From Ornithinicoccus hortensis (GTDB lineage Bacteria; Actinomycetota; Actinomycetes; Actinomycetales; Dermatophilaceae), in contig NZ_VFOP01000001.1 in assembly GCF_006716185.1 (NCBI RefSeq), positions 1,054,001 through 1,118,000 of the forward strand: DNA of 64,000 bases, given 5' to 3'. The notes beneath the pieces are model-generated. The model saw nothing but the letters and a program-made list of their open reading frames with translations, searched no databases and was not told the DNA's origin. The position numbers and the translations under genes are program-made. Shown here piece by piece: positions 1 through 64,000 of the stretch. Position 1 is the stretch's first letter. The number at the start of each line of letters is the position of its first letter.

Positions 1-1888
1 CCTTGGCCACCGTCGCCGGGACGAGTTGCACCTGGTGCACCTCGTCGTGTTCGGTCCCCAGCACGTCGTGCGCCACTCCCGCGGCCGTGAGTGCCCGAGC
101 GGTCGCTGCCACCCGGTCGTCGGGCACGATGAGGCCGACCGAGCCGGGTTGGCGGGCCAGCCCCGCAGCCCGGTCGACGACGGCCGCTACCAGGTCGGCC
201 GCGGCCACCCGGTCGAGGTCGAGCCGGCCCCGGTTCTCCCGGACGGAGACCGGTGCCCCGAGGCCGGGGGCCATGTGCGGGAGCAGCCGGGCGGCATACT
301 CGATCACGGCGGCGGGCACCCGGAAGCCGCGGTCCAGCACCTCCACGTGGGCGCCGTCCTTGCCCAGGTGGCGCAGCGACTCCTGCCACGAGCCGGTCGC
401 CCACGGGGTCGTGCCCTGCGCGATGTCTCCCAGGACGGTCAACGAGCCGGTCGCCGCGCGGCGACCCACCGCGCGCAGCTGCATGGGGGAGAGGTCCTGC
501 GCCTCGTCCAGCACGATGTGCCCCAGGCTCGGCGTGCGCTCGAGGATGTCCCCGAGCTCGTCCAGCAACACCGTGTCGGCCGCTGTCCACCGCGCCGCAC
601 CCTTGGTGCGCGGGGGCCTGTCCCACAGCAGCAGCTCCTGCTCCTCCGCGGTGAGGTCGCTGCCCGCAGCCGCCGCCAGGGCCCCGGGTGAGGACCACAG
701 CTCCCACAACACCTGACGGGGGTCGACGCGCGGCCACAACGTCGTCACGTAGTCCCGGACCGGTTTCGACCGGGCGACCGCGTCCTGCACCCGGTCGTCC
801 GGGGTGTCCCCGGCCCGCTCCATCCGGACCAGCACGGCGTGCGCCAGCCGCTGCGGGAGCATCGCCCTGGCCGCGTCGTACCGGACGCCGCGGGTGCCCA
901 GCTCGTCCAGGATCTCCTGGACCTCGAACGCGCCCACCCGCCACTTGCGGGCACCCCGGGGCACGACCAGCGGTTCCCCGGCACTCCCCACCCTCGCCCA
1001 GACGGCCCGGCGCAACACGTCCGCCAGGCGGGCATCGCCCTTCAGCGTCGCCACCCGGGGGTCGTCCGTGGCGCGGACCGGCACGTCCCCCACCAGCTCC
1101 TCGATCGTGGTGTGCCGCACCTCGATCTCGCCGAGCGCCGGGAGCACGGCGCCGATGTGTTCCAGGAAGGCCCGGTTCGGCCCGACCACGAGGACCCCGG
1201 TGCGGGACAACCGCTCGCGGAAGGCATAGAGCAGCCAGGCCGCCCGGTGCAGGCCGACCGCGGTCTTGCCCGTGCCCGGTGCACCCTGCACGCAGACAGT
1301 GCTGGAGACGTCGGCCCGCACGATCTGGTCCTGCTCGGGCTGGATGGTGGCCACGATGTCGCGCATCGGCCCGATCCGGGGTCGCTCGATCTCGCGGGCC
1401 AGGATGGCCGATCCCCCGGTCTCCCCGGCATCGACGTCACCATCCTGCGGGGCGAGCAGGTGCTCGTCCTCGTATGCCGTGAGCTCGCCCCCGTCGACCC
1501 CGAACCGGCGGCGCAGGACGACCCCCATCGGATAGGTGCGGGACGCCCGGTAGAAGGCAGTGGAGACCTCGGCCCGCCAGTCGATGACGACCGGGTCCCC
1601 CGCGGGGTCGGACACGTGCCGACGTCCGATGTAGTGGGGGCGGGCGGCGGAGCCATCGGTCAGGTCGACGCGGCCGAAGAACAGGGCGCTGCCAGGGTCG
1701 TCCAGCAAGGCCTTGGCCCGCTGCCACAGCGTGTAGGCGAGGTGCTCACCGGCGATCTTGTCGCCGGCGTCGGCCTGCAGGGAGAGGGTGTGCTCGCGCA
1801 TCCGGGCGAGCTCGGAGCGGGCCCTGGCCAGGTGGGCCTGCTCCCGGGCGAGTTCGTGGGCAGGGTCGGGGGCGGGCGGAACGGACAT
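1..1888 (-). CDS. HelD/UvrD-like superfamily 1 ATPase, C-terminus beyond the left edge
   Basis: About 629 residues are present and the frame stays open to the window edge. The N-terminus is charged and probably coiled coil (residues 8-40). A Walker A motif GAPGTGKT lies at residues 202-209 and a Walker B-type DEAQD at about 461-465, the layout of superfamily 1 helicases split by long insertions. In Actinobacteria such proteins with an N-terminal coiled coil are usually HelD/HelR factors that release stalled RNA polymerase; that role is inference, and a UvrD-type DNA helicase remains possible. The start ATG (1888-1886) has GAGGTGG about nine bases upstream. That ribosome site lies in one arm of a 16-bp inverted repeat. 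The gene follows the HtrA gene on the same strand. Confidence 0.75.
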   Translation of the reverse strand, partial: MSVPPAPDPAHELAREQAHLARARSELARMREHTLSLQADAGDKIAGEHLAYTLWQRAKALLDDPGSALFFGRVDLTDGSAARPHYIGRRHVSDPAGDPVVIDWRAEVSTAFYRASRTYPMGVVLRRRFGVDGGELTAYEDEHLLAPQDGDVDAGETGGSAILAREIERPRIGPMRDIVATIQPEQDQIVRADVSSTVCVQGAPGTGKTAVGLHRAAWLLYAFRERLSRTGVLVVGPNRAFLEHIGAVLPALGEIEVRHTTIEELVGDVPVRATDDPRVATLKGDARLADVLRRAVWARVGSAGEPLVVPRGARKWRVGAFEVQEILDELGTRGVRYDAARAMLPQRLAHAVLVRMERAGDTPDDRVQDAVARSKPVRDYVTTLWPRVDPRQVLWELWSSPGALAAAAGSDLTAEEQELLLWDRPPRTKGAARWTAADTVLLDELGDILERTPSLGHIVLDEAQDLSPMQLRAVGRRAATGSLTVLGDIAQGTTPWATGSWQESLRHLGKDGAHVEVLDRGFRVPAAVIEYAARLLPHMAPGLGAPVSVRENRGRLDLDRVAAADLVAAVVDRAAGLARQPGSVGLIVPDDRVAATARALTAAGVAHDVLGTEHDEVHQVQLVPATVAK

Positions 1889-1892
1889 GGAA

Positions 1893-1957
1893 AGGCCACC
1901 TCGGATCGACCAGGCGAAAGGGGGGAGACAAAGACCTTAGCCGATCCGAGGTGGCCT
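1893..1957 (-). promoter_or_regulatory. 16-bp inverted repeat covering the helicase ribosome-binding site
   Basis: AGGCCACCTCGGATCG at 1893-1908 and CGATCCGAGGTGGCCT at 1942-1957 are perfect inverted copies separated by 33 bases. On the minus strand the second arm contains the GAGGTGG ribosome site of the helicase gene, so the folded RNA would hide it. The same stem follows the HtrA stop codon and could act as an RNA 3' end, but no T-tract follows. Which role applies is not decided by sequence. Confidence 0.65.
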
Positions 1958-1968
1958 GGCTGGGGGAA

Positions 1969-3135
1969 TTACTGCTGCTGGTCGTCCGGCCGGGCGTCCA
2001 GCGTCACGGTGACCTCGTGGCGTTCGCCGTCCCGGACGTAGCCCAGGACGACCTCGTCGCCGGTGGTGCGCTGGCGCACCTGCGCGACCAGGGCGAGGGC
2101 GCTGTCCACGCGCTCCCCGTCGATGTCGGTGATGACGTCGCCCTTCTTCAGTCCGGCGGACGCGGCGGGGGAGTCCTCCTCGACCTGGCTGATCCCGGCG
2201 GCGGCGCTGGTGCCGCTGTCCACGGTGGCCGTCGCGTCCTCGAGGCCCACGCCGAGGAAGGCGTGCTCGGCCGTCCCCTCCTCGATGAGCTGCTCGGCGA
2301 TCGAGTCCGCCTCGCTCACCGGGATGGCGAAGCCGATGCCGATGCTGCCGCTCTGGCCGCCCATCGCACCGCTGGACAGGCTCGCGATGGAGGAGTTGAT
2401 CCCGACCAGCGCGCCGGACGCGTCGACCAGGGCGCCGCCGGAGTTGCCGGGGTTGATCGCCGCGCTGGTCTGGATGGCGTTGGTCACGACCGGTGCGGCC
2501 TGGGCCTGCGACATCGGGTCCATCCCCTGCTCGGTCGACTGGGTGGTGACCGGGCGGTCCAGCGCGCTGACGATGCCGGTGGTCACCGTGCCGGACAGGC
2601 CGAGCGGGTTGCCGATCGCCATGACCGGCTGGCCGACGGTGAGTGCCTGGTCGTCGCCGAGGGCGATCGGGACGAGGTCGTCGGGCGGGTCCGTCAACGT
2701 GATCACGGCCAGGTCGGTGGAGGAGTCCTCGCCGGCCACCTCGGCGTCGTAGGCGCGGCCGTCGGCGAGGGTGACCCGCACCCGGTCGGCGCCGGCCACG
2801 ACGTGCGCGTTGGTGACGATGTGCCCCTCGGTGTCCCACACGACGCCGGAGCCGGCGCCCTCGCTGGTCTGGGAGGAGACGCCGATGGAGACCACGCTCG
2901 GTCCCACCTTCTCGGCGATGGTGCCCCAGTCGGACTGGGTGCCCAGCGAGGCATTGGACGCCTGCGTGGTGGCCCGACCGGAGGACTCCACGACGACCGG
3001 CTGGTCATCGGCACCCGCCTGCACCACGGCATACGTGCCGCCGGAGGCAAGGCCCGCCGACAACAACCCGACGGCCAGGATGCCGCCCCAGCGGGATGCG
3101 CGTCCGCCCTGTCGCGGCGTGGTCTGCGTGCTCAT
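1969..3135 (-). CDS. HtrA/DegP-type serine protease with PDZ domain
   Basis: A 388-residue membrane-anchored S1C (HtrA/PepD-like) protease that probably degrades or chaperones misfolded proteins outside the membrane. Residues 18-40 form one hydrophobic segment after a short basic cytoplasmic tail, giving a type II anchor. The catalytic triad is His111 (TNAHVV), Asp141 (STDLAVI) and Ser232 (GNSGGAL). A PDZ domain fills roughly residues 290-380 (FLGVGL, SPAASAGLKKGDVI). I chose ATG 3135 because AGGAGG lies six bases upstream; a longer in-frame start at 3204 has no better ribosome site and would put extra polar residues before the anchor. The gene is divergent from the ehu operon. Confidence 0.92.
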   Translation of the reverse strand: MSTQTTPRQGGRASRWGGILAVGLLSAGLASGGTYAVVQAGADDQPVVVESSGRATTQASNASLGTQSDWGTIAEKVGPSVVSIGVSSQTSEGAGSGVVWDTEGHIVTNAHVVAGADRVRVTLADGRAYDAEVAGEDSSTDLAVITLTDPPDDLVPIALGDDQALTVGQPVMAIGNPLGLSGTVTTGIVSALDRPVTTQSTEQGMDPMSQAQAAPVVTNAIQTSAAINPGNSGGALVDASGALVGINSSIASLSSGAMGGQSGSIGIGFAIPVSEADSIAEQLIEEGTAEHAFLGVGLEDATATVDSGTSAAAGISQVEEDSPAASAGLKKGDVITDIDGERVDSALALVAQVRQRTTGDEVVLGYVRDGERHEVTVTLDARPDDQQQ

Positions 3136-6656: not shown

Positions 6657-8144
6657 TCAGGAGGCGTCGGCCGGTTCGGTGGTGAGGTGCAGCGGCAGCT
6701 CGACACGGAACGTGGCGCCCCCGCCGGGGGTCTGCAGGTGGCGGACCGTCCCGCCGTGCCGGGCCACGATGGCCGCGACGATGGCCAGCCCCAGGCCGGT
6801 GCCGCCGCTGGACCGGTTGCGCGAGGGATCCGCGCGGTAGAACCGCTCGAACACCCGGTCGGCGACGTCCGGCGGGATGCCCGGCCCGTGGTCCCGGATC
6901 TCCACCACGGCGCGTCCCCCTGAGCTCCCGAGGGCCACCTCCAGCGGGGTCCGGTCCGGGGTGTGCTCCAGGGCGTTGGCCACCAGGTTGGTGAAGACCT
7001 GCCGCAACCCGTGGTCGTCGCCCATGGTGTGGACCCCGGAGAGGCCCTCCGCGGCGGGGTCCAACGGCACCAGCCGGATGTCCCGGTCGTCCCGGCGCAC
7101 CCGGGCGTCCTGGACGGTGTCGGCGGCGAGCACGGTGAGGTCGACGTCCCGCGGCTGCGTGGCCGGTTGGCTGTCGAGCCTGGTCAGCAGCAGCAGGTCC
7201 TCCACCAACCGGGCCATCCGGCCGGCCTCGTTCTCGATCCGGCTCATCGCCCCGGCCACGTCCTCGGGCTCGCGCACGCCCCCCACGCGGTACAGCTCGG
7301 CATACCCCTTCACCGTGGCCAACGGGGTCCGCAGCTCGTGCGAGGCGTCCGCCACGAACTGCCGCATCCGCTGCTCCGAGGCCTCCCGCACCGCGAAAGA
7401 GTGCTCGATGCGCGCCAGCATCCTGTTCAGCGAGTCCGACAACGAAGCCACCTCGTCGTGGGCGGCCCGCGGCGGGATCCGGCTGGTGAGGTCCCCGGCG
7501 GCGATCGCCCGGGCGGTGTCCTCGATCCGGCCGAGCGGACGGAACGAGCGGCGCACCGCGAACCAGCCGAGCAGGGCGACGGCCGCGAGCGTGCAGAAGC
7601 CGACGATGCTGCTGAGGAGGACCAGTTGTCGCACGGTGCTCTGCACGGGGGCGAGCGGGACCGCGACGGCGACGGTCAGCTGGCCGCTGCGGTGCCGGTC
7701 GGCCAGCACCCGCCACTGCCCGTCGGACCCCTCGCCCCGCACCGTGAAATAGAACGGTCCCTCGGCGAACCGCGGGTCGTCCCAGGCCACGGCGCTCAGG
7801 TCGGGACGGATCTCCTGGCTGCGCGGCGCCCAGGCGATGGCCTGGTTCGTCTCGCGGTGCGTAATCACCAGGTAGAACGGGGTCGAGGGCAGGTAGTCCT
7901 CGCCGGGGTCCGGCTGGTTCATCAGCTGGGCCACCGCGCTGTCGGCCAACGGGTCCAGGTAGGAGCGCAGGTCCGAGTCCGTGCGGTCGGTCAGGTAGTC
8001 GCGCAGCAGGTATGCCGTGAGCGTGGTCGTGACGAGGAACGCGGTGAGGGTGAGCAGCACGACCACCGAGACGAGGCGTGCGGTCAGCGACAGGTTGTGC
8101 AGCCGGGTATAGACCCGGTGGCGGGCTCCGGCCAGGGGGGTCAC
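6657..8144 (-). CDS. Membrane sensor histidine kinase of an OmpR-type pair
   Basis: A 495-residue kinase. Transmembrane helices at about 23-48 and 175-200 flank an extracytoplasmic sensor of about 125 residues with no domain I recognise. A HAMP domain follows (about 200-252), then HisKA with His269 in DASHELRTPL, and HATPase_c with N box NLVANALEHT, G1 DHGPGIP and G2 GGTGLGLAI. It autophosphorylates and passes phosphate to the regulator encoded just upstream. Its GTG start (8144) overlaps the regulator's stop by four bases (GTGA). TrcS-, MprB- and CseC-like assignments are all plausible; the stimulus cannot be read from sequence. Confidence 0.9.
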   Translation of the reverse strand: MTPLAGARHRVYTRLHNLSLTARLVSVVVLLTLTAFLVTTTLTAYLLRDYLTDRTDSDLRSYLDPLADSAVAQLMNQPDPGEDYLPSTPFYLVITHRETNQAIAWAPRSQEIRPDLSAVAWDDPRFAEGPFYFTVRGEGSDGQWRVLADRHRSGQLTVAVAVPLAPVQSTVRQLVLLSSIVGFCTLAAVALLGWFAVRRSFRPLGRIEDTARAIAAGDLTSRIPPRAAHDEVASLSDSLNRMLARIEHSFAVREASEQRMRQFVADASHELRTPLATVKGYAELYRVGGVREPEDVAGAMSRIENEAGRMARLVEDLLLLTRLDSQPATQPRDVDLTVLAADTVQDARVRRDDRDIRLVPLDPAAEGLSGVHTMGDDHGLRQVFTNLVANALEHTPDRTPLEVALGSSGGRAVVEIRDHGPGIPPDVADRVFERFYRADPSRNRSSGGTGLGLAIVAAIVARHGGTVRHLQTPGGGATFRVELPLHLTTEPADAS

Positions 8145-11040: not shown

Positions 11041-12708
11041 CTAGCTTGGCGCGGGCGCGTCCAAAGACCCGAGGTCATCCGCGTCGACGATGCGGTAGGC
11101 GTAGCCTTGCTCGGCCAGGAACCGCTGCCGGTGCGCGGCGAACTCCGCGTCGACGGTGTCCCGCGCGACGATCGTGTAGAAGTGGGCGGTCCGGCCGTCG
11201 CCCTTGGGCCGCAGCACCCGGCCGAGGCGCTGGGCCTCCTCCTGGCGCGACCCGAACGTGCCGGAAACCTGGATCGCCACGGACGCCTCCGGCAGGTCGA
11301 TCGAGAAGTTGGCGACCTTGCTCACCACGAGCAGGTCGATCTCGCCCTCCCGGAACTGCCGGAACAGCTTCTGCCGGGTCGCGACCCCCGTCTCGCCGGT
11401 GATCAACGGGGCGTCCAGGCGCCCGGCGAGGGTCTCCAGCTGGTCCAGGTACTGCCCGATGACCAGCGTCGGCTCGCCCCGGTGCCGGGCCACGAGCTGG
11501 TCGACGACGGGGTCCTTGGCCTCCGCGCACGAGGCGAACCGGTAGCGCTCCTCCGGCTCGGCCACGGCATACGCCATCCGCATCGACTCGGACAGGCCGA
11601 CCCGCACCTCGACGCAGTCGGCAGGAGCGATATAGCCCTGGGCCTCGATGTCCTTCCACGGGGCGTCGTACCGCTTGGGGCCGATCAGCGAGAACACGTC
11701 GGACTCCCGACCGTCCTCGCGCACCAGGGTCGCGGTCAGGCCGAGGCGGCGGCGGGCCTGGAGGTCGGCGGTCATCCGGAAGATGGGGGCCGGGAGCAGG
11801 TGGACCTCGTCGTAGACGATGAGGCCCCAGTCCCGCGCGTCGAGCAGGTCCAGGTGCGGGTAGTTGCCCTTCCGGCGCAGCGTGAGGACCTGGTAGGTGG
11901 CGATGGTGACCGGGCGGATCTCCTTGCGGGCCCCGGAGTACTCCCCGATCTCGTCCTCGGTGAGGGAGGTGCGGGCCAGCAGCTCGTCACGCCACTGCCG
12001 GGCGGCGACGGTGTTGGTCACCAGGATCAGCGTGGTCGTCCCCGACTTGGCCATCGCGCCGGCGCCGACCAGAGTCTTGCCGGCTCCGCAGGGCAGCACC
12101 ACGACACCGGAGCCACCGTCCCAGAACCCGTTGACCGCCTGCTGCTGGTAGGGCCGCAGCGACCAGCCGTCCTCCGCCAGGTCGATCCGGTGCTGTTCGC
12201 CGTCGACGTAGCCGGCCAGGTCCTCGGCGGGCCACCCCACCTTGAGCAGCTCCTGCTTGAGGCGGCCACGCTCGGAGGGGTGGACCTCGACGGTGTCCTC
12301 GTCGACGGTCTGGCCGATCATCGGCTTGATCTTCTTGTGCCGCAGCACCTCGGCGAGCACCGGACGGTCCGTGGTGCGCAGCAGCAGCCGGGGCTCGTCA
12401 CCGGACTCGTCGCGGAGCAGGGTCAACCGGCCGTAGCGGGCCATCGTGTCCGCGACGTCGAGGAGCAGGGCGTTGGGGACCGGGTACCGGCTGTGGGTCA
12501 CCAGGGCGTCCACGACTTGCTCGGCGTCGTGCCCCGCGGCCCGGGCGTTCCACAGGCCCAACGGGGTCACCCGGTAGGTGTGCACGTGCTCCGGGGCACG
12601 CTCCAGCTCGGCGAACGGTGCGATCGCTCGCCGGGCGGTCTCCGCGTCGGGGTGGTCGACCTCCAGCAGGAGGGTCTTGTCGCTCTGCACGATCAGGGGT
12701 CCGGTCAT
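11041..12708 (-). CDS. XPB/ERCC3-type DNA repair helicase
   Basis: A 555-residue superfamily 2 helicase of the bacterial XPB family, a 3'-5' DNA translocase linked to repair. An N-terminal helicase-associated domain (about 1-170) begins GPLIVQSDKTLLLEVDH. The motor has Walker A PCGAGKT (206-212), DEVH in VYDEVHLLP, motif III LTATLVRED, and a C-terminal helicase lobe with QEEAQRLGRVLRPKG (motif VI). I place the start at ATG 12708, just before the conserved N-terminus; no strong ribosome site is visible and an earlier in-frame GTG is possible. The gene is divergent from the HMG-CoA lyase gene across 104 bases. Confidence 0.93.
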   Translation of the reverse strand: MTGPLIVQSDKTLLLEVDHPDAETARRAIAPFAELERAPEHVHTYRVTPLGLWNARAAGHDAEQVVDALVTHSRYPVPNALLLDVADTMARYGRLTLLRDESGDEPRLLLRTTDRPVLAEVLRHKKIKPMIGQTVDEDTVEVHPSERGRLKQELLKVGWPAEDLAGYVDGEQHRIDLAEDGWSLRPYQQQAVNGFWDGGSGVVVLPCGAGKTLVGAGAMAKSGTTTLILVTNTVAARQWRDELLARTSLTEDEIGEYSGARKEIRPVTIATYQVLTLRRKGNYPHLDLLDARDWGLIVYDEVHLLPAPIFRMTADLQARRRLGLTATLVREDGRESDVFSLIGPKRYDAPWKDIEAQGYIAPADCVEVRVGLSESMRMAYAVAEPEERYRFASCAEAKDPVVDQLVARHRGEPTLVIGQYLDQLETLAGRLDAPLITGETGVATRQKLFRQFREGEIDLLVVSKVANFSIDLPEASVAIQVSGTFGSRQEEAQRLGRVLRPKGDGRTAHFYTIVARDTVDAEFAAHRQRFLAEQGYAYRIVDADDLGSLDAPAPS

Positions 12709-15669: not shown

Positions 15670-15844
15670 GGTGGCCTCCCGTGATTGCCGTCCTGCCTAC
15701 CGTATGCCGTGGGGCCGGCGGACGCACCCTCGCCGCCCGGGAACCGGCTGGGTCGCCGACGCCCCGAATAGGGCGCGCGGCGGGCCTGGGCTTACCGTGT
15801 GGCGAGAGAGAGTTCGTAGGTGCGGGGATCAGGAGGCCGGGGAC

Positions 15845-17818
15845 ATGGCGACATCAGGGATCGACCGGGTTCACATGGACGTCCGGGTACGCCCCCAGGA
15901 CGACCTCTTCGGCCACGTGAACGGGCGGTGGCTGGAGACGGCCGAGATCCCTGCCGACCGCGGCCGCTACGGGGCCTTCGACATGCTCCGGGAGAACGCC
16001 GAGACCAGGGTGCGCGAGCTGATCGAGCGGGCCGCGGGGTCCGAGCCGCCGCTGGACAGCCCTGCCGGCAAGGTGGGTGCGCTGTACGCCAGCTTCATGG
16101 ATACCGCGGCGGTCGAGGCGCAGGGCACCGAGCCGCTGGCCGACGACCTGCGCCGGATCGCCGCCGTCACGGACGCCTCGGGCGTGGTCCAGACGTCGGG
16201 GGTGCAGGAACGGCACGGCGTGGACGGCCTGGTGCACTTCTGGGTGACCTCGGACGCCGGCAACCCGGGCACCAACATCGGCTACCTGCACCAGGGCGGC
16301 ATCGGCCTGCCGGACGAGGCGTACTACACCGACGAGGACCACGAGGCGACGCGCACGGCATACGTGGCCTACCTGCGCCGGCTGCTCGAACTGGCCACGG
16401 ACGAGCTGGCGGCGGCCGGGCTCGACCTCGGACCCGACGCGGCCGACCGGGTGTTCGCCCTGGAGACCCGGATCGCCGCGGCCCACTGGGACCGGGTGAC
16501 CGCCCGGGACGCGGTGAAGTCCTACACCCGGCTGACCCGCGCCGAGCTGGACGACCTCACCCCCGGGTGGGACTGGGCGGCCTGGGCGGGCGGCATCGGC
16601 GCGGCGGACGGCGCCCTGGACCACGTCGTCGTCCGTCAACCCGACGTGCTGACCGCGATCGCGACGGCGCTGACCGAGGTGCCGGTCGCCGACTGGCAGG
16701 CCTGGCTCGTGGTGCGTCTCCTGGACGCGACCGCCCGCTACCTGCCGGACGACTTCGTGCAGGCCCACTTCGACTTCCACGGCCGCACCCTTACCGGCAC
16801 GCCCCAGCTGCGGGAGCGGTGGAAGCGGGGCGTCGGCCTGGTCGAGCAGCTGCTCGGCGAGGCGGCCGGTCAGCTGTATGTCGCGGAGCACTACCCGCCG
16901 GAGGCCGCGGAGCGGATGGAGCACCTGGTGGCCAACGTGGTCGCCGCCTTCCGCGAGCGCATCGCCGAGCTGGAGTGGATGGGGGAGCAGACGCGGGAGA
17001 GGGCGCTGGAGAAGCTGGCCGCGTTCCGTCCCAAGATCGGCCACCCGCCCACCTGGAAGGACTACTCGGCCTACGAGGTGCTGCCGGGCGACCTGCTGGG
17101 CAACGTGCGCCGCGGCCACGCCGTCGCGGCCGACCGGGAGCTGGCCAAGGTCGGGCAGCCGGTGGACCGCGACGAGTGGTTGATGACCCCGCAGACGGTG
17201 AACGCCTACTACCACCCGATGCTCAACGAGATCGTCTTCCCCGCCGCCATCCTGCAGCCGCCGTTCTTCACGGTGGACGCCGACGACGCGGTGAACTACG
17301 GCGGGATCGGGGCGGTCATCGCCCACGAGATCGGGCACGGGTTCGACGACCAGGGCTCCCGGTTCGCCGGGGACGGGTCGCTGACCGACTGGTGGACCGA
17401 GGAGGACCGGGCCAACTTCGACCAGCGGGCCGCGGCGCTGATCGCCCAGTTCGACGGGCTCTCCCCGCGGGACCTGCCGGACCGGACGGTCAACGGGGGC
17501 CTGACGGTCGGGGAGAACATCGGGGACCTGTGCGGCCTCAACATGGCGTTGGCCGCCTACCGGAAGGTGGACGGGGGAGGGTCCCAGGAGATCGACGGCT
17601 GGACGGGGGACCAGCGGTTCTTCCTCGGCTGGGCGCAGGTGTGGCGGGGCAAGGCGCGGGCCGAGGAACTGGCCCGGCTGATGACCACCGACCCGCACAG
17701 CCCCTCCGACCTGCGGGGCAACGTCGTGCGCAACGTCGACGCCTTCCACGAGGCGTTCGGCGTCACCGAGGGCGACGGCATGTGGCTCGCACCGAGCGGC
17801 CGGGTGCGAATCTTCTGA
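15845..17818 (+). CDS. M13-family (neprilysin/PepO-like) zinc metallopeptidase
   Basis: A 657-residue peptidase that should cut short peptides. The zinc site is HEIGH with His494, Glu495 and His498; the third ligand is Glu557 in GENIGDLCGL, and the substrate-binding NAYYHP lies just ahead. There is no signal peptide, so like mycobacterial Zmp1 it may act in the cytosol or leave by a non-classical route. Length fits the family. AGGAGG eight bases before ATG 15845 decides the start; TACCGT near 15795 may be the -10. Confidence 0.93.
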   Translation: MATSGIDRVHMDVRVRPQDDLFGHVNGRWLETAEIPADRGRYGAFDMLRENAETRVRELIERAAGSEPPLDSPAGKVGALYASFMDTAAVEAQGTEPLADDLRRIAAVTDASGVVQTSGVQERHGVDGLVHFWVTSDAGNPGTNIGYLHQGGIGLPDEAYYTDEDHEATRTAYVAYLRRLLELATDELAAAGLDLGPDAADRVFALETRIAAAHWDRVTARDAVKSYTRLTRAELDDLTPGWDWAAWAGGIGAADGALDHVVVRQPDVLTAIATALTEVPVADWQAWLVVRLLDATARYLPDDFVQAHFDFHGRTLTGTPQLRERWKRGVGLVEQLLGEAAGQLYVAEHYPPEAAERMEHLVANVVAAFRERIAELEWMGEQTRERALEKLAAFRPKIGHPPTWKDYSAYEVLPGDLLGNVRRGHAVAADRELAKVGQPVDRDEWLMTPQTVNAYYHPMLNEIVFPAAILQPPFFTVDADDAVNYGGIGAVIAHEIGHGFDDQGSRFAGDGSLTDWWTEEDRANFDQRAAALIAQFDGLSPRDLPDRTVNGGLTVGENIGDLCGLNMALAAYRKVDGGGSQEIDGWTGDQRFFLGWAQVWRGKARAEELARLMTTDPHSPSDLRGNVVRNVDAFHEAFGVTEGDGMWLAPSGRVRIF

Positions 17819-28444: not shown

Positions 28445-28482
28445 CGGTCCGTATGCCGTGGGGCCGGGTGGGGCGACCCGAC

Positions 28483-29817: not shown

Positions 29818-29820
29818 GGT

Positions 29821-33403: not shown

Positions 33404-33496
33404 GCAGGAGCGACACGGGACGGCGCGCGTTACTGCGGTATGCCGTCGGCCGAGTGTGACCAGGATCGCACCGTTCCGGTTTGGTTCCGCGAGGGT

Positions 33497-44258: not shown

Positions 44259-44262
<4 letters not shown>

Positions 44263-45143: not shown

Positions 45144-46453
45144 GCACCACGCTGACGCCGATCCTGAGCAAGTTCTGGGACCACCCGCAGTCCTGGACGC
45201 TAGCGACCTACGAGGACAACGACGGCTACCAGGCGCTGCGCAAGGCGCTGAAGATGGACCCGGCGGACATGGTGCAGGCGGCCAAGGACTCCGGCCTGCG
45301 CGGCCGTGGCGGCGCCGGGTTCCCCACCGGGATGAAGTGGGGCTTCCTGCCCCCGCCGGACGGTGGACCCCGCTACCTGGTGGTGAACGCCGACGAGGCG
45401 GAGCCGGGCACCTGCAAGGACATCCCGCTGCTGATGGCCGCCCCGCAGTTCCTGATCGAGGGGATGATCATCACCTCCTTCGCGATCGGCTGTAACCACG
45501 CCTTCATCTACCTGCGCGGTGAGGTGGTGCACGTGCACCGCCGGGTGCAGCGGGCCATCGAGGAGGCGTATGCCGCCGGCTACCTCGGCAAGGACATCCT
45601 GGGCAGCGGGTTCGACCTGGACATCACGCTGCACTCCGGTGCCGGTGCCTACATCTGCGGTGAGGAGACGGCGCTGCTGGACTCCCTGGAGGGCCGGCGC
45701 GGTCAGCCCCGCCTGAAGCCCCCGTTCCCGGCGGTCGCGGGCCTCTACGCCCGCCCCACGGTCGTGAACAACGTGGAGAGCATCGCCAGCGTCGCCCCGA
45801 TCTTCCAGCACGGCGCCGAGTGGTTCGCCGGGATGGGCACCGAGAAGTCGCAGGGCTTCGGCTTCTTCTCGCTGTCCGGACACGTGACCCGCCCGGGCCA
45901 GTACGAGGCCCCGCTCGGCATCACGCTGCGCGAGCTGCTCGACATGGCCGGCGGGATCCGCAAGGGCCACCAGTTGAAGTTCTGGACGCCCGGTGGCTCC
46001 TCGACCCCGATCTTCACCGACGAGCACCTGGACGTCCCGCTGGACTTCGAGTCCGTGGCCGCGGCCGGGTCCATGCTGGGCACCCGCGCGCTGCAGATCT
46101 TCGACGAGACCACGTCCGTGGTGCGTGCGGTGGCCCGGTGGACCGACTTCTACGCCCACGAGTCCTGCGGCAAGTGCACCCCCTGTCGGGAGGGCACCTA
46201 CTGGCTCAAGCAGATCATGGCCCGCCTCGAGGCGGGCAAGGGCACCCAGGACGACATCGACAAGCTCGTCGACATCTGTGACAACATCCTGGGCCGCGCG
46301 TTCTGCGCCCTGGGAGACGGCGCGACCAGCCCGATCACCTCCGCCGTCCAGCACTTCCGGGAGGAGTTCGAGGCGGGGATGCACACGCCGGCCGACGAGT
46401 TGTTCCCGCCGGAGCGCTCCACCCTGTTCGCCAAGGAGGGCCAGCCCGCATGA
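45140..46453 (+). CDS. nuoF: NADH-quinone oxidoreductase subunit F
   Basis: A 437-residue 51-kDa-type subunit that binds NADH and FMN and takes the first hydride. [15 protein letters not shown] (about residue 54) is the NADH/FMN loop, [19 protein letters not shown] the FMN site, and [16 protein letters not shown] plus a later Cys (RAFCALGD) hold the N3 [4Fe-4S] cluster. GTG start overlapping nuoE. Confidence 0.97.
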
Positions 46454-48939
46454 CCGTCAACTCCTCTCCCGCCTCCGGTGGAAACGCGGTGGACACCGGC
46501 GGGAACGCCGAGGTCCCGGCCGAGCCGGACGTGAAGATGGTCGAGCTCACCATCGACGAGGTCCCGGTGAGCGTGCCGGAGGGCACCCTGGTGATCCGGG
46601 CGGCCGAGCAGATCGGCATCCAGATCCCCCGGTTCTGCGACCACCCGCTACTGGACCCGGTCGGCGCCTGCCGGCAGTGCATGGTGGATGTGGCCACCCC
46701 GGACCGGGACGGCAACTACCGGCCGATGCCCAAGCCCCAGGCGTCCTGCACCATCGCCGTGTCGCCCGGCATGCAGGTCAAGACCCAGCACACCTCCGCG
46801 GTCGCCGACAAGGCGCAGCAGGGCCAGATGGAGTTCCTGCTGATCAACCACCCGCTGGACTGCCCCGTCTGCGACAAGGGCGGGGAGTGCCCGCTGCAGA
46901 ACCAGGCGATGTCCAACGGCCGGCCCAAGAGCCGCTTCGAGGACGTCAAGCGGACCTACCCCAAGCCGATCAACATCTCCACGCAGGTGCTGCTGGACCG
47001 GGACCGCTGCGTCCTCTGTGCCCGGTGCACCCGGTTCTCCGACCAGATCGCCGGCGACCCGTTCATCGCGCTGATCGAGCGCGGGGCGCTGCAGCAGGTC
47101 GGGGTCTACGAGGAGCAGCCGTTCCAGTCCTACTTCTCGGGCAACACCGTCCAGATCTGCCCGGTCGGTGCGCTGACCGGTGCGGCCTACCGGTTCCGCT
47201 CCCGGCCGTTCGACCTGGTCTCCACCCCGAGCGTGTGCGAGCACTGCGCATCCGGGTGCTCCATCCGCACCGACCACCGCCGCGGTGTGGTGCTGCGCCG
47301 GATGGCGCTGGAGGACCCCGAGGTGAACGAGGAGTGGAACTGCGACAAGGGTCGCTGGGCCTTCCCGTATGCCGTGCAGCCGGACCGGCTGCGCGACCCC
47401 GTGGTCCGCGACTCCGACGGGCAGTACCGGGTGGCCTCCTGGGACGAGGCCTACGCCGCCGCGGCCAGTGCGCTGGGCGCGGCCCGGGCCGACCGCGGGG
47501 TGGGCGTGCTCACCGGCGGCCGGCTGTCCCTGGAGGACGCCTACGCCTACAGCAAGTTCGCCCGGACCGCGTTGGGCACCAACGACATCGACTTCCGCTC
47601 CCGTCCGCACTCGGTCGAGGAGACCGAGTTCCTGGCGGCCCGCGTCGCCGGCAACACCAGCGTGACCTTCGGTGACCTGGAGACCGCCTCCGCGGTCCTG
47701 CTGGTCGCGCTGGAGCCGGAGGAGGAGTCGCCCTCGATCTTCCTGCGGCTGCGCAAGTCCAACCGGGCCAACGGCACCCCGGTCTACGCGCTGGCCCCCT
47801 TCGCCACCCGCGGGCTGGAGAAGGTGAACGGCACCCTGCTGCCGGTCGCCCCCGGCACCGAGGCTGAGGTGCTCCGCGCGATGGTCGAGCACCCCGGCGA
47901 CGAGGGGCTGCTGCACGAGGCCATCCAGGCGCTCGACGCCGGCGCGGTGATCCTGGTCGGCGAGCGTCTCGCGATGGTGCCCGGCGGGTTGTCCGCGGTC
48001 GCCGCGCTGGCCGAGAGCACCGGGGCCCGGCTCGCCTGGGTCCCGCGCCGGGCCGGTGAGCGCGGCGCGGTCGAGGCCGGCGCGCTGCCCAACCTGCTGC
48101 CCGGTGGCCGCCCCCTCGGGGACGCGACCGTGGCCGCCGCGTGGGGCGCCGAGTTGCCGCAGCAACCGGGCCGGGACAGCGGGGCGATCTTTGCCGCCGC
48201 CGCCTCCGGTGAGCTGTCCGCGCTCCTGGTCGCGGGGGTCGACCCCGACGACATGGAGGACCCGCGCACCGCCCGCGCCGGGCTGGAGAAGGCGTTCGTG
48301 GTGTCGCTGGACCTGCGCGAGTCCGCGGTGCACGAGTACGCCGACGTGATCCTGCCGGTCGCGCCGCAGCAGGAGAAGTCGGGCAGCTTCGTCAACTGGG
48401 AGGGTCGGGTCCGGCCGTTCCAGCAGGCGCTGGACTCCAACGCCCGCAGCGACGCCGGGGTGCTCGACCTGCTGGCCGGTGCGATGGGCATCGCCCTGGG
48501 CACCCTCTCCGTCGACCAGGTCCGGACCGAGCTGGAGGGCCTGGCCGGCGCGACCGACCGGCCGGCCGCTCCGCAGGTCCCGGCCTCGGGCCCGCCCCGC
48601 CCGGCGCAGGGCGAGGCCGTGCTGGCCACCTGGCACCACCTGCTGGACCTCGGGTCGCTGCAGGACGGTGAGCCCTTCCTGGCCGGCACCGCCAAGACGC
48701 CGGTCGCCCGGCTCTCCCCGGCGACGGCCGCCGCCGCAGGTGTGGCGGAGGGCGATCCGCTCCTGGTGAGCACCGACCAGGGGGCACTCACCCTGCCGGT
48801 GGCACTGACCGAGATGCCCGACCACGTCGTCTGGGTGCCGACCAACTCGACCGGGTCCCGGGTCCGCGCCACCCTCGGGGTGGACGCCGGGGCCGTGGTC
48901 CGGGTCGGGGCCGCCGAACACACCGGAGGTGTCGCATGA
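46450..48939 (+). CDS. nuoG: NADH-quinone oxidoreductase subunit G
   Basis: An 829-residue 75-kDa-type subunit forming the electron wire. The N1b [2Fe-2S] cysteines are in [20 protein letters not shown], the N5 set in [17 protein letters not shown], and N4 in [10 protein letters not shown] with CPVGALT. The extra N7 motif [10 protein letters not shown] with a later Cys in EWNCDKGRW is kept. The C-terminal two thirds are molybdopterin-oxidoreductase-like without a cofactor Cys. The stop overlaps nuoH. Confidence 0.95.
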
Positions 48940-51024: not shown

Positions 51025-51872
51025 CCGGAGCGGAAGCCCTGCTCTTCTGGGTGCTGGCACCGGCCACGGTGCTGGGCGCCCTCGGGCTGCTGTTCGCCCG
51101 CAAGGCCGTGCACGCCGCCATGTCGATGGCGCTGGTGATGGTCTCGATGGGTATCTTCTACATCGCCCAGCACGCCGAGTTCGTCGGCATCATCCAGATC
51201 TTCGTCTACTCCGGCGCGGTCATGATGCTCTTCCTCTTCGTGGTCATGACGATCGGCGTGGACGCCTCGGACTCGATGATCGAGCCGCTGGCCGGCCAGC
51301 GGGTCTGGTCCTGGATCCTGGGCATCCTCTTCCTCGCGCTGGGCGTGACGATCGTCGGCCAGGTCTCCTTCCCGGACACGGTCGAGGCCCTCGCCGCCGC
51401 CCAGGCCGAGGGATCGATCACCGCGCTGGCCCGGGAGATCTTCAGCGTCCAGGTCTTCGGCTTCGAGGTCCTCGGCACGCTGCTGGTGATCGCGGTCATG
51501 GGCGCCATGGTGCTGGCCCACCGGGAACGGCTGCTGCCGCGCCGCGACCAGCGCGCCTCGGCCGCGCGGCGGGTCCGGTCCGGCCAGTGGCTGTCGGGCA
51601 AGCCGAACCCCGGCATCTACGCCCGGCACAACGCCTCCGACACCCCGGCGCTGCTGCCCGACGGCACCCCGACCGAGATCTCCGTCCCCCGCGTGCTGGT
51701 CGCCCGCGACCAGCTGGTCGACCCGGAGATCTTCGCGGAGGCGACGGAGACGGCATACGACTCCATCGGCACCGGGTTCCCGCACCCGGACACCCCGGTG
51801 CCGGACGACGCCGACGACCAGGCCACCCGTGACTCTGCCGGCACCCAGTCCACCGAGGAGGCACAGCGGTGA
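51021..51872 (+). CDS. nuoJ: NADH-quinone oxidoreductase subunit J
   Basis: A 283-residue membrane subunit with five helices in the first 175 residues, including the [17 protein letters not shown] helix that contains the pi-bulge region of complex I. About 105 extra polar residues follow (from [13 protein letters not shown] on), with no recognised domain; long NuoJ tails occur in other actinobacteria. Overlaps nuoI and nuoK by four bases each. Confidence 0.95.
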
Positions 51873-52168: not shown

Positions 52169-52177
52169 GGAGCGAGC

Positions 52178-57191: not shown

Positions 57192-58207
57192 GCCCCGTCC
57201 CGACGACGCACGACCCCGGACCGGCCACCGTCATCCCCGGGGTCGACCCTGCGCTGAACGAGCGGATCCTGGCGGGCCTGGAGACCGTCGACGCCCGACT
57301 CACCGAGGCGGTGTCCTCGGACGAGGAGTTCCTGGCCGAGGCCGGGGGCTACCTGGCCCGCGCGGGAGGCAAGCGGTTCCGCCCCCTGCTGGCGCTGCTG
57401 TGCGCCGAGGTCGCCGGTGGGATCAACGCCCGCGTGGTCGACGCCGCCGTCGGCGTCGAGCTGACTCACCTGGCCTCGCTCTACCACGACGACGTGATGG
57501 ACGAGGCGGACCTGCGCCGCGGGGTCCCGAGCGCGAACCGGGCCTACGGCAACTCCACCGCGATCCTGGTCGGCGACCTGCTCTTCGGCACCGCCTCGTA
57601 TGTCGTCGCCGGGCTCGGCGCCGAAGCCGTCCGGATCCAGGCGGAGACCTTCGTCCGGTTGTGCGCCGGGCAGATCCGGGACACCCGTCCCCCCGGCGAG
57701 GGGGAGGACCCGGTCGACTACTACCTCGGGGTCCTGGCCGACAAGACCGGGGCGCTGATCGCCACCGCCGCCCGCTACGGCGCGCTGTTCGCCGGGGCCG
57801 ACGAGGAGACCATCCGGACCCTCACGGCATACGGCGAGCGGATCGGCGTGGTCTTCCAGCTGGCCGACGACCTGCTCGACATCGCCTCGGACGCCGACGA
57901 CTCGGGCAAGACCCCGGGCACCGACCTGCGGGAGGGCAAGGCCACCCTGCCGGTCCTCCTCGCCCGGGCGTCCACGGACCCCGCCGACGCCGAGCTGCAG
58001 CAGCTCCTCGCCGGCCCGATCGGCGACGAGGCGGACCTGGAGCGGGCGCTGACCCTGCTGCGGGAGCACCCCGCCATGGAGCAGGCGCAGCGGCACACCC
58101 TGGAGATGGCGCAGGGCGCCGAGGAGCTGCTGGCCCGGCTCGAGGACGGGCCGGCGGTGCAGGCGCTGAGGGCCATGGTCACCGGCGTCGCGCTGCGCTC
58201 GACCTGA
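57188..58207 (+). CDS. Long-chain polyprenyl diphosphate synthase (menaquinone side chain)
   Basis: A 339-residue trans-isoprenyl diphosphate synthase. GKRFRPLLALL is at residues 61-71, the first Asp-rich motif DDVMD at 101-105, and the second DDLLD begins at about 227. The residue pattern ahead of the first motif (small side chains, HLASLYH) is that of long-chain enzymes such as heptaprenyl or octaprenyl synthases. Translational coupling to nuoN (GTGA overlap) strongly suggests it makes the menaquinone tail. Chain length cannot be read exactly. Confidence 0.9.
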   Translation: MSPVPTTHDPGPATVIPGVDPALNERILAGLETVDARLTEAVSSDEEFLAEAGGYLARAGGKRFRPLLALLCAEVAGGINARVVDAAVGVELTHLASLYHDDVMDEADLRRGVPSANRAYGNSTAILVGDLLFGTASYVVAGLGAEAVRIQAETFVRLCAGQIRDTRPPGEGEDPVDYYLGVLADKTGALIATAARYGALFAGADEETIRTLTAYGERIGVVFQLADDLLDIASDADDSGKTPGTDLREGKATLPVLLARASTDPADAELQQLLAGPIGDEADLERALTLLREHPAMEQAQRHTLEMAQGAEELLARLEDGPAVQALRAMVTGVALRST

Positions 58208-58215: not shown

Positions 58216-58896
58216 TCAGCTGGAGCGCAGTCCGGGGTTGAGCACGCCGCGGAAGTGGACCGCCCGCCACCCGAACCGCTCGGCCGCCTCCACGTTCGGC
58301 AACCGGTCGTCGGTGAAGACCACCGCGGACCGGGTGACCGGGCGCTCCAGGTGCCGTTCGACCGCGGCGTGCGCCGCGGCATACGCACCGGGGTCCGGCT
58401 TGGCGACGCCGAAGTCGGCGCTGTTCAGCGCCACCCCGGCCAGGTGCCCGAGGCCGATCTGGTGCAGCTCGGCGGGGATGTTGTCCGTGCCGTTGGTGAA
58501 CAGGAAGACGCGCTTGCCGGCCCCCTGCAGCTCCTCGATGAGGGCCACCGTCGGCCGGATCGGCGTGCCGCGGTCGGCGAGCCACGCGTCGACGGCGCGG
58601 GTCGCGTCCTCGGCGTCGATCCCGTGCTCGACCAGGCCCTCGCAGATGCTGCTGCGCCACTGGGCGAAGGTGATGTCCCCGACGATGACCGCGCCGAGCC
58701 GGCTCTCGTGGAAGGCGATCGTGAAGAACTCCTCCGACGTCAGCCCGATCCGGGCGGTGACCTCCCGCGTCGTGGCGAGGTCGAAGTCCCGCACGACACC
58801 GTCGAGGTCGAACACGAAGACCTCGGCGTCGGCGGCCATCCCGCGCAGGGTGGTCAGCGGGTCGGGGGCCGGGTGGTCGCTCTGCACGCCGCCCAT
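58216..58896 (-). CDS. HAD-superfamily hydrolase
   Basis: A 226-residue HAD phosphatase with a helical cap. Motif I is VFDLDGVVRDFD (nucleophile Asp), motif II LFTNGT, motif III Lys in GVAKPDP, and motif IV FTDDRLPNVEAAE. It is like YihX/epoxide-hydrolase-type HADs; the substrate is probably a small phosphoester. The start is uncertain: ATG 58896 lacks a clear ribosome site, and internal GTG or ATG codons are possible. Convergent with the polyprenyl synthase, eight bases apart. Confidence 0.8.
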   Translation of the reverse strand: MGGVQSDHPAPDPLTTLRGMAADAEVFVFDLDGVVRDFDLATTREVTARIGLTSEEFFTIAFHESRLGAVIVGDITFAQWRSSICEGLVEHGIDAEDATRAVDAWLADRGTPIRPTVALIEELQGAGKRVFLFTNGTDNIPAELHQIGLGHLAGVALNSADFGVAKPDPGAYAAAHAAVERHLERPVTRSAVVFTDDRLPNVEAAERFGWRAVHFRGVLNPGLRSS

Positions 58897-59014
58897 CGTG
58901 TCACGGGCGGGGCACCCGGCATACCGGGAAATGCCGACGCGGCGCGCGGGTGGGCGGGCGTCCCGGGTTAAGGTGATGGACGGCAACCAGCGGCAGGGGA
59001 GTAGGGAGTCAGGC

Positions 59015-59665
59015 ATGGCGCAGGGCGGGTCCTCGCCGACGCCGCCGTCGGCGACCCCCGAGGGGGCCGACCGCGACGGGTGGGCCGGGACGGTCCGCAC
59101 CACTGAGCGCCTCGACACGGTCGCCAACGGGGTGACGCTGGTCCGCACCGTGGTGTCCGTCGTGCTCGCCGTCTTCGCCCTCGTCGAGGCGTCCGTCCCC
59201 CTGCTCATCGTGGCGTATGCCGTCTACTGGGTCGGCGACATGGCCGACGGCTGGTCGGCCCGGGCCCTGGACCAGGAGACCCGGCTCGGTGCCGTCTTCG
59301 ACATCATCAGCGACCGGGCCTGCACCATCCTGTGCGCGGCGGCGTTCATCCGGATCGAGCCCGAGGTCGCCGTCCCGATCGCGGTCTTCCTGGTGCAGTT
59401 CGCGGTCCTGGACACGATGCTCACGCTCGGCTTCCTCTACTGGCCGGTGAAGGGCCCGAACGACATGCACCAGGTCGACCGGACGATCTACCGGTGGAAC
59501 TGGTCGCCGCCGGCGAAGGCGGTCAACACCTCCGTCGTGGTGCTGCTGTGCCTGGTCGGCTGGCCGGTCCCGGCAACCGTGGTGGCCGCGGCGGTCGGTG
59601 TGCTGAAGGTCTGGTCCCTGGTCCGCATGCGCGGGCTGTCCACCGGCACGATCACCCCGAACTGA
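59015..59665 (+). CDS. CDP-alcohol phosphatidyltransferase
   Basis: A 216-residue membrane enzyme that moves a phosphatidyl group from a CDP-alcohol to an acceptor hydroxyl. The full signature is present: Asp75, Asp78-Gly79, Ala82-Arg83, Gly92, Asp96 and Asp100. About six hydrophobic segments. Which phospholipid it makes (PgsA-, Pis- or ClsB-like) is not decided. ATG 59015 has GGGAGT upstream; the next gene follows after nine bases. Confidence 0.86.
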   Translation: MAQGGSSPTPPSATPEGADRDGWAGTVRTTERLDTVANGVTLVRTVVSVVLAVFALVEASVPLLIVAYAVYWVGDMADGWSARALDQETRLGAVFDIISDRACTILCAAAFIRIEPEVAVPIAVFLVQFAVLDTMLTLGFLYWPVKGPNDMHQVDRTIYRWNWSPPAKAVNTSVVVLLCLVGWPVPATVVAAAVGVLKVWSLVRMRGLSTGTITPN

Positions 59666-60206: not shown

Positions 60207-60857
60207 ATGGATCCCGCCAGCACCCCGATCAAGGTCTTCCTCCTGGACGACCACGAACTCGTCCGGCGGGGCCTGCACGACCTCCTGTCCAGCGAGCCCG
60301 ACATCGAGATCGTCGGGGAGTCGGGGTCGGCCCAGGAGGCCACCCGGCGGATCCCGGCGCTGCGCCCGGACGTGGCGGTGCTGGACGGCCGGCTGCCGGA
60401 CGGCTCGGGGGTGGAGGTATGCCGTGACATCCGGGCCGTCGACCCGACCATCAAGGCGCTGATCCTGACCTCCTACGACGACGACGAGGCGTTGTTCTCG
60501 GCGATCATGGCCGGGGCCTCCGGCTACGTGCTTAAGCAGATCAACGGCACGGAGTTGGTGGACGGGATCCGCAAGGTGGCCGCCGGGATGTCCCTGCTGG
60601 ACCCGGCGCTCACCGCGCGGGTGATGGACCGGCTGCGGCACGGGGACCCGCAGCAGGCGGCCCTGAGCAAGCTCACCGAGCAGGAACGCCGGATCCTGGC
60701 GCTGATCGCCGAGGGGATGACGAACCGGCAGATCGGCGCCCAGCTCTTCCTGGCCGAGAAGACGGTGAAGAACTACGTCTCCAGCCTGTTGGCCAAGCTC
60801 GGGCTGGAACGCCGCACCCAGGCGGCCGTGCTGGGCGCCAAGCTGTTCGACAAGTAG
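60207..60857 (+). CDS. DevR/DosR-type response regulator (NarL family)
   Basis: A 216-residue regulator. The receiver (about 8-125) has acidic DDHE, phospho-acceptor Asp60 (VAVLDGRLPDG), Thr in LTSYDDD and Lys in VLKQINGTEL; the LuxR-type helix-turn-helix (about 150-212) reads LTEQERRILALIAEGMTNRQ and KTVKNYVSSLLAKLG. The GRLPDGSGVEVCRDIR and KTVKNYVSSL segments are those of DevR, which controls dormancy genes under hypoxia or NO in mycobacteria. DevS-like kinase and DevR-box-like palindromes lie just downstream. TACAACT shortly before the ATG suggests a near-leaderless transcript. Confidence 0.88.
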   Translation: MDPASTPIKVFLLDDHELVRRGLHDLLSSEPDIEIVGESGSAQEATRRIPALRPDVAVLDGRLPDGSGVEVCRDIRAVDPTIKALILTSYDDDEALFSAIMAGASGYVLKQINGTELVDGIRKVAAGMSLLDPALTARVMDRLRHGDPQQAALSKLTEQERRILALIAEGMTNRQIGAQLFLAEKTVKNYVSSLLAKLGLERRTQAAVLGAKLFDK

Positions 60858-63201: not shown

Positions 63202-63315
63202 CGGATGAACGCTACCGTCGCCGCGCCGGGAGCCGGAAGGACCCTCCGCGGCCGGCGCGACGTACCCTGCTGCCATGAGTCGGGTCCGCGGTCTGCCGCA
63301 CGCCGGGGGCGCACG

Positions 63316-64000
63316 ATGACCCCCCGTACCCGCCGACAGCTGGCCGGGGCCTGGGCGATGGTCCCGTTCGCGCTGCTCCTGGTGGGGGCGCGGGTGTGGC
63401 AGCCCCCGGGGGAGCTGCCGACCCGGTGGTCCGGCAGCTCCCCGGACGGCTTCACCGACGGTGGCACGGTGCTGCTCACGACGCTCACCGTGGCCGGCTT
63501 CTGCTCGATCCTGGCCGCGCTCGTCGCCCTGGTGCGGGTGTTCGTCCCGGGGCGGTGGTCCCGCTGGATCGTGGCCCTGTTGGCGACCGTGTCCGGTGCC
63601 GCGGCGGCCGCCTACGGCGTGGGTGCGTGGGCCACGTCGCTGGCCGGTTCGGCGGCAGCGGTCCACCCCTGGTGGGTGGCGCTCGTGGTCGTCCTGGCGG
63701 TGCTGTGCGGTGTCGTCGCGCACCGGGTGCACGGTCTGGAGGTGCCCTCGCGCGCGGAGCTGCTGCACGGCATACCGGAGCGGTCGCGGGTCGTCCCGGT
63801 CACCCGGCCGGACCCGGCGGTCGGTCGAGCGGCCGCGGGGGGCGACGGCGACGAACGGGCACCCGGGGAGTGGACCGGGCGGTCGGCCTCCCGGCTCCTG
63901 GTGGGGCTGAGCATCTACACCGGCCTGGTCTTCGCGGTGTGCGTGGCCCTCCTGCTGTTCGGCGGGCCGCACTACCGGCTGTTGCTGGTCGCCGTGCTGG
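63316..64000 (+). CDS. Membrane protein with DUF1648-like start, cut by the right edge
   Basis: 228 codons are present, frame open to the end. Helices lie at about 12-28, 52-75, 82-105, 115-132 and 195-220. The segment between helices one and two, PTRWSGSSPDGFTD, recalls DUF1648 proteins (P-x-HW-x-x-G-x-x-D), such as bacitracin/SdpI-like membrane proteins. The function is unknown. Divergent from the DevS-like gene across 114 bases. Confidence 0.6.
   Translation, partial: MTPRTRRQLAGAWAMVPFALLLVGARVWQPPGELPTRWSGSSPDGFTDGGTVLLTTLTVAGFCSILAALVALVRVFVPGRWSRWIVALLATVSGAAAAAYGVGAWATSLAGSAAAVHPWWVALVVVLAVLCGVVAHRVHGLEVPSRAELLHGIPERSRVVPVTRPDPAVGRAAAGGDGDERAPGEWTGRSASRLLVGLSIYTGLVFAVCVALLLFGGPHYRLLLVAVL

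Follow-up and report, generated by a model that had tools for sequence, protein, structure and literature searches.

Sequence-tagged uptake of DNA was attributed to two families, the Pasteurellaceae and the Neisseriaceae, in a 2016 review (PMC5031613). In the Neisseriaceae, the DNA uptake sequence (DUS) occurs in thousands of copies in and between genes, forms inverted pairs at gene ends, and is found in several dialects that track phylogeny within one family (PMC3630211). The uptake signal sequence (USS) of the Pasteurellaceae also has dialects, and its receptor ComN/PpdA is described as still only predicted (PMC12616744). In Micrococcus luteus, the deletion of any gene of either tad cluster was reported to abolish transformation, with one exception that merely lowered it (PMC4322843). 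Here we analyzed a 64,000-nucleotide stretch of the Ornithinicoccus hortensis genome (contig NZ_VFOP01000001.1, positions 1,054,001 to 1,118,000; hereafter the window), in which the octamer CGGCATAC is strongly over-represented. Together with a soft 5′ CA or CT, this octamer is probably a DNA uptake sequence, that is, a self tag for natural transformation. It resembled the DUS, which is read by the minor pilin ComP, in its very high copy number, its inverted pairs, its dialects and its genic and intergenic copies; however, its sequence was different and its host is a Gram-positive bacterium with a high GC content. Like the USS it was a short tag with dialects, although the two sequences were unrelated and ComN belongs to the type IV minor pilins.

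Abundance, strand balance and base specificity

The over-representation had been noticed in a preliminary description of this DNA and was confirmed. The window contained 33 exact copies of CGGCATAC (18 on the forward and 15 on the reverse strand, spanning 292-63775), against about one expected: dinucleotide shuffles gave a mean of 1.08 and a maximum of 4 (100 shuffles), and an order-2 Markov model gave 0.93. Some of the positions given in that description were off by one base. The complete genome (3,935,242 bases, one contig) held 1,865 copies, 926 forward and 939 reverse, which represented ~one per 2 kb, and the control pattern read backwards was found 123 and 126 times, respectively. A comparison with a third-order Markov model had been proposed as a check, and the octamer was far above that expectation: the 464-kb sample, comprising the window and 20 stretches of 20 kb from the same genome, contained 209 copies vs. 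12.9 expected. The order-4 expectation of 61.4 already absorbs the pentamers of the octamer itself.

The near-even use of the two strands was also as described before, and it is unlike that of the FtsK-orienting polar sequences (KOPS). A strand-orienting segregation signal, either KOPS-like or of the architecture-imparting type, would share the genome-wide spread and the high copy number. However, the strands were equal genome-wide and approximately equal by replichore: the 20 stretches had 92 leading-strand and 84 lagging-strand copies, with the origin (~0.4–0.6 Mb) and the terminus (~2.6–2.8 Mb) placed by GC skew only. Such a signal was largely contradicted by these counts and is hardly credible here.

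The eight core positions were near-fixed. The longer word CACGGCATAC occurred 72 times in the 464-kb sample vs. 0.6 expected, and single-base changes of its core gave 0 to 8 copies; a few of these variants still exceeded their own expectation, and the most frequent was CACGACATAC (8 vs. 0.7). The base directly 5′ of CGGCATAC was A in 44% and T in 31%, together 75% of 208 sampled copies, and a soft C (61%) was found two bases 5′ of the core, so that the extended site was (C)(A/T)CGGCATAC. No clear base preference was detected 3′ of the core in the sampled copies of this genome. The core was non-palindromic.

Codon phase and placement in genes

Genes were predicted with a simple gene caller of our own in 484 kb of the genome, 87% of which was coding. 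There, 178 copies were coding, 40 were intergenic and 3 lay across a gene edge, and the density was 0.43 per kb inside genes vs. 0.61 per kb outside. When synonymous codons were shuffled within genes, 18.8 coding copies were expected. All six phases were enriched, with observed/expected values of 6/0.89, 46/1.83, 10/0.58, 2/0.10, 9/1.99, and 105/13.4. These results supported the earlier statements that copies exist in all coding phases and that the signal acts at the DNA level rather than as a codon-pair effect, and the excess was not limited to one phase.

A bias, either of codon pairs or of context-dependent mutation, that yields the octamer as a by-product would fit the finding that two phases held most of the coding copies, TAT-GCC with 105 of 178 and GCA-TAC with 46 of 178. 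However, every phase exceeded the shuffles, the density was higher between genes, and single-base variants were far rarer than the octamer. In addition, 10 of the 31 ATA codons and 105 of the 301 TAT codons of the sample were located inside motif copies. The all-phase excess together with this share of ATA and TAT codons showed that a codon-pair effect was not the main cause, and the probability left to any such bias is negligible.

Close pairs and hairpins

Seventeen of the 19 pairs of neighbors less than 30 bp apart were inverted when the O. hortensis genome (2 of 4), 23 motif-bearing relatives (12 of 12) and 33 named loci (3 of 3) were pooled; the named and unnamed sets may share genomes. 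Within 60 bp, there were 31 inverted pairs in all. In the order GTATGCCG...CGGCATAC, 16 of 18 pairs were intergenic, compared with 5 of 13 in the opposite order, where three of the 13 resembled a single orthologous site shared by three genomes. Nine of the 16 intergenic GTATGCCG...CGGCATAC pairs started 7–26 bp past a called stop codon, and many hairpin stems of inverted pairs reached well beyond the motif.

Opposite orientation was also observed in 217 of 311 neighboring copies 100–1000 bp apart and in 249 of 469 more than 1000 bp apart (three sets summed), for which we offer no explanation. In the genus g16 (three samples of genome G015: L157, L158, and L195), the motif was mostly intergenic: the 8 kb between genes, out of 60 kb, held 14 of the 21 copies. 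A longer form, AGCGGCATACG, was present there.

Distribution and dialects in the Dermatophilaceae

Named relatives of MenD placed the genome in the Dermatophilaceae in the sense of GTDB, close to Ornithinimicrobium, Phycicoccus, and Nostocoides. Among the sampled genomes, a high copy number of CGGCATAC was confined to this family. The 273 genomes from 19 other families of the order possessed at most 94 copies per strand, generally no more than a few times the control. Of the 292 genomes from the phylum but not from the family, 7 of them shared with the order set, none had more than 31 copies of the 9-mer ACGGCATAC per strand. The highest relative, with a genome of 3.6 Mb, contained 1,655 and 1,622 copies of CGGCATAC per strand. 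The 9-mer was counted in 119 Dermatophilaceae genomes, 102 of which were at least 90% complete. Presence of the motif was defined as at least 100 copies and ~2 times the backwards control; 50 of the 102 genomes were above this threshold, and 3 more had CGGCATCC instead. In the named loci (7–22 kb; 80 named and 8 own loci counted), 0 to 25 copies were found. Phycicoccus endophyticus, P. jejuensis, Arsenicicoccus piscis, and Ornithinicoccus halotolerans were among those with none, and P. elongatus Lp2 and N. jenkinsii had 25.

Over-represented octamers were then compared in samples of 14–60 kb from 61 relatives and the O. hortensis genome, in which dialect calls based on single 20 kb samples are weak. 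Clade-specific spellings within the family included CGGCATCC, CGGCGTAC, and CGTCATAC, and they were mixed within one genus. CGGCATCC took the place of CGGCATAC in genomes G016, G026, and G103. Its count per strand was 1,850–2,258 in G016, G064, G026, and G103, and 1,805 and 1,814 in G118; G044 and G079 had 983–1,116 plus 217–240 copies of ACGGCATAC per strand, and the remaining 112 of the 119 genomes had 111–674, with G001 at the top. Since G044, G079, G103, and G118 belong to one genus (g45), the change of spelling is apparently under way or recently completed there. G040 and G048 showed an increase of CGGCGTAC or CGTCGTAC, and G023 and G069 a weak one; CGTCATAC occurred with CGGCATAC, and in part with CGCCATAC, in G003, G027, and G114; CGGCATTC accompanied CGGCATAC in G012; and CCGCATAC was found in G020 and weakly in G104. 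No spelling was found in the samples of some genera. A tree based on the LeuS, ComEC, and DegV proteins of 60 genomes (quick method; 34 of the 57 inner branches starred) showed mostly clade-coherent spellings and at least 14 changes in the presence of the motif.

These data bear on a Chi-like recombination hotspot, read by an enzyme of the RecBCD type. Chi would also be a very abundant octamer, and RecC is encoded in the O. hortensis genome itself. However, the leading-strand bias of Chi was absent (92 vs. 84), and a change of spelling from genus to genus is unexpected of a conserved enzyme. RecC was detected in 48 of the 119 genomes, and its distribution did not follow that of the motif: it was not found in the motif-rich G017, G021, and G022 (AddAB and AdnAB were not searched), and it was present in the motif-less G013, G041, and G045. 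We therefore consider a Chi-like function very unlikely.

The octamer CCGCATCG in G057 (40 vs. 9.3) was rejected as a dialect; it was found almost only in two phases and was sparser between genes, and it was therefore taken as a codon effect. A very different octamer, CCCCTTCG, marked the clade of G037, G038, and G074, with 49 copies vs. 6.9 expected in 60 kb of G074. In these three genomes together it occupied all six phases and was three times denser between genes, and it may be another tag system or a terminator-like word. In the samples of G003 (L173 and L174), AGTGGCACG was found 17 times in 40 kb vs. 0.5 expected, perhaps as a local repeat array.

Orthologous sites and foreign DNA

Orthologous sites were compared at ~71–74% DNA identity throughout, with octamers of equal GC content as the control. 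In the comEC region, 69 alignments of O. hortensis copies with 23 motif-bearing relatives showed an intact octamer in 29 cases (control, 15.1%), compared with 1 of 57 alignments with 18 motif-less relatives (control, 14.2%). For the window, 32 of 123 were intact in the 21 named loci with at least four copies and 0 of 39 in the 8 named loci with no copies (control, 20.0% in both). Overall, the motif was retained in the lineages that bear it and erased in those without it. Orthologous octamers differed by one base in 10 of 69 cases in motif-bearing and 18 of 57 cases in motif-less relatives, counted in gap-free columns only.

A short selfish repeat that spreads in a transposition-like manner would explain the high copy number, and that was all that spoke for it. 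The flanks were not conserved beyond the soft CA or CT, and the frequent one-base differences at orthologous positions, insertions being left out, fit point substitution. The chance that the octamer is such an element is vanishingly small.

Mobile DNA was poor in the motif, as seen in a small sample of one prophage and one island-like stretch. The ~40 kb prophage in G080 had 2 copies in the 34 kb read vs. 15.7 expected at the density of the O. hortensis genome. No copy of CGGCATAC was present in 20 kb at 1.80–1.82 Mb of the O. hortensis genome (L128; GC content 0.65), which, judged from its translated genes, resembles an island carrying an integrase and an insertion sequence transposase. The stretch at 0–20 kb, with transposase- and integrase-like genes by translation, contained 3 copies.

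The HIP1 octamer of cyanobacteria is palindromic and abundant genome-wide, and its abundance depends on the lineage. In the same way, CGGCATAC might be bound or modified by another system that acts genome-wide, such as a nucleoid-organizing protein or a methyltransferase; the abundance of the octamer would be kept by selection and its spelling would track the protein. Any sequence-specific protein could yield restriction to a family and clade spellings, and the excess in all phases and the use of both strands are compatible with this. However, the core is non-palindromic, unlike HIP1, and a large excess is not expected of a methylation target as such. Moreover, neither the hairpin-forming inverted pairs after genes nor the depletion in the prophage is predicted by such a system. 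This explanation is unlikely, though it deserves more weight than the other alternatives.

Competence and tad genes

Beside leuS, the O. hortensis genome encoded ComEA (SLBB plus HHH_3) and a full ComEC, and it contained two tad clusters. The cluster tad-1 (L255:5151-9755) comprised TadA, TadB and TadC (both with T2SSF hits), TadE, and TadG, together with a Flp-like small protein recognized by reading and a TadF-like protein without a family hit. The cluster tad-2 (L256:6912-13194) included a small pilin-like protein with DUF4244. M. luteus likewise has a comEA/comEC locus and two tad clusters with the gene order tadA-B-C-(flp)-E/F-G, and the term "uptake sequence" is absent from the main text of the paper on its Flp/Tad-dependent transformation (PMC4322843). 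In contrast to the Neisseriaceae, the pili here are of the Tad type, and no ComP-like receptor was identified. A type IVa pilus was rejected as the uptake machine: its marker PilM_2 existed in 5 of the 119 Dermatophilaceae genomes, and that of O. hortensis was not among them.

TadA of tad-1 (TadA1) had widespread orthologs (at least 59% identity, mostly 68–83%), and in 18 of the 119 genomes the best match was a paralog or nothing. Among the genomes at least 90% complete, neither CGGCATAC nor CGGCATCC was present in 11 of 13 without TadA1 vs. 38 of 89 with it (Fisher p = 0.006; uncorrected for ancestry, with fragmentary hits counted as present and other spellings included in the 38). TadC1 gave the same picture: it was searched in 30 genomes, leaving out G086 and G091, and the 12 motif-less genomes without TadA1 that were searched had no hit or none better than 5.7e-8. 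The link between tad and the motif is suggestive, but it is not significant once ancestry is considered. In the motif-bearing G047, tadA1 was not found and TadC1 was represented by its last 32 residues, and the pilin genes downstream were intact (TadB1 was not searched). This pattern is as expected of a recent loss.

The expected tadA-tadC site of tad-1 in this genome (L287; G047:C2:111001-121000) was occupied by unrelated DNA, including a SIR2-like gene. The tadA gene of tad-1 was split by ~35 kb in the motif-less G028 (G028:C23:365837-401816) and by ~11 kb in the motif-rich G007 (G007:C43:9233-21506). A comparison of the tad-1 minor pilins across dialects, using stretches from six relatives plus G047, was limited by their small number and high divergence; the gene calls in the tad-1 stretch L289 included no pilin.

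Insertions were found in comEC as well. In G080 (G080:C46), a member of the same genus, the ~40 kb prophage, with a serine integrase (L249:15498-16925) and a terminase, was located inside comEC, the two parts of which were at L248:1525-2547 and L249:16973-18559. The break was at position ~30 of the profile of the Competence domain. The comEC of G049 (G049:C1; parts at L250:18446-19153 and L220:9114-10727) was split at the same position by an insert with a phage capsid gene, and the comEC pieces of G095 reached contig ends there. The gene may contain a recurring phage attachment site in the Dermatophilaceae.

A putative DNA uptake sequence

A word that is non-palindromic, strand-neutral, present in all phases and scarce in mobile elements, combined with hairpins, clade spellings and competence genes of the M. 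luteus type, is best explained by a DNA uptake sequence. The preliminary description had proposed a Chi-like site, a methylation target, a nucleoid-protein site or a selfish element; the level of DNA was right, but the option that fits best was not among these. We propose that Dermatophilaceae cells would make a Tad/Flp competence pilus with ComEA and ComEC, and that a putative receptor in or near the pilus would favor tag-bearing DNA fragments. Tagged fragments would be imported and recombined, and tagged alleles would overwrite untagged ones, so that the tag could build up to a density of ~one per 2 kb, regardless of frame and strand. Unrelated DNA, such as phages and islands, would remain tag-poor. 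A shift in the preference of the receptor would change the spelling of an entire clade, and the tags would decay once uptake was lost. The natural transformation of Dermatophilaceae, the motif-dependent uptake and the existence of a receptor are the parts that we infer.

Several points weigh against an uptake sequence. ComEC was present in 115 of the 119 Dermatophilaceae genomes, motif or not, and was uninformative as a predictor of the motif; the motif-less genomes G057, G008, G010, G002, G019, G024, and G083 kept tad-1. The motif therefore cannot be predicted from the machinery alone. On the tree, the association of TadA1 with the motif was reduced to ~3 independent pairs for and 0 against (p ~0.25). 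G047 and G092 bore the motif and had no ortholog-level TadA1, and G092 was left unexplained. A DNA-binding surface was sought in the charge of the tad-1 minor pilins, and these were acidic and not obvious DNA receptors. Just two of the four close pairs in the O. hortensis genome were inverted. The retention of window copies in named relatives was only 26% vs. 20%, and loci of the same genus showed no excess (2 of 13 intact vs. 15.4%, a small sample). Each site was counted once per relative, so that the orthologous alignments were not independent. We know of no transformation experiment in the Dermatophilaceae, and no relevant report was found in a search for literature on natural competence in the Intrasporangiaceae.

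The literature searched, outside of which were most subscription journals and preprints, yielded no report of an actinobacterial uptake sequence, and none of the matches listed for the exact octamer was on this subject; most matches to its letters were presumably due to chance. The chances seem somewhat better than even that Gram-positive bacteria have here their first uptake-sequence system, a third one that evolved independently, in which a single family uses at least four related spellings, a Tad/Flp competence pilus or an associated new kind of receptor serves as the reader, and the spelling is half-way through a change in g45. If true, a third and convergent case would indicate that self-DNA preference evolves repeatedly. 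The dialects, mixed genomes and losses would allow a direct test of whether tags spread by biased uptake or by selection. Many little-studied Dermatophilaceae would then be naturally transformable and genetically tractable through a tag on the donor DNA.

Copies in the window

The earlier claim that the nuo genes are depleted was not established. Three copies (45568..45575 and 47367..47374 on the reverse strand, and 51751..51758 on the forward strand) were located in the 16 kb taken as nuo (41146-57191, limits of our own choice), where 7.3 were expected (P = 0.07). Exact matches on the forward strand were also found at 292..299, 3027..3034, 7298..7305, 11565..11572, 16356..16363, 25182..25189, 29258..29265, 35179..35186, 38685..38692, 39859..39866, 57825..57832, and 58377..58384, and on the reverse strand at 1472..1479, 8010..8017, 25313..25320, 31797..31804, 36572..36579, 38301..38308, and 60417..60424. 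A gene at 22788-24584, named MenD-like from its translation, contained two copies, at 22892..22899 (reverse) and 24425..24432 (forward). Two forward copies, at 27859..27866 and 27880..27887, formed a direct pair 21 bp apart, and the reverse copy at 29819..29826 lay over the start codon of the gene called at 29821.

The intergenic copies were on the reverse strand at 15702..15709 (between the called genes at 15669 and 15845), 28451..28458 (28444 and 28483), and 33438..33445 (33403 and 33544). Two others, 58917..58924 on the forward and 59215..59222 on the reverse strand, shared the interval between the called genes at 58896 and 59675. The forward copy at 63768..63775 was located at a site where no gene was called.

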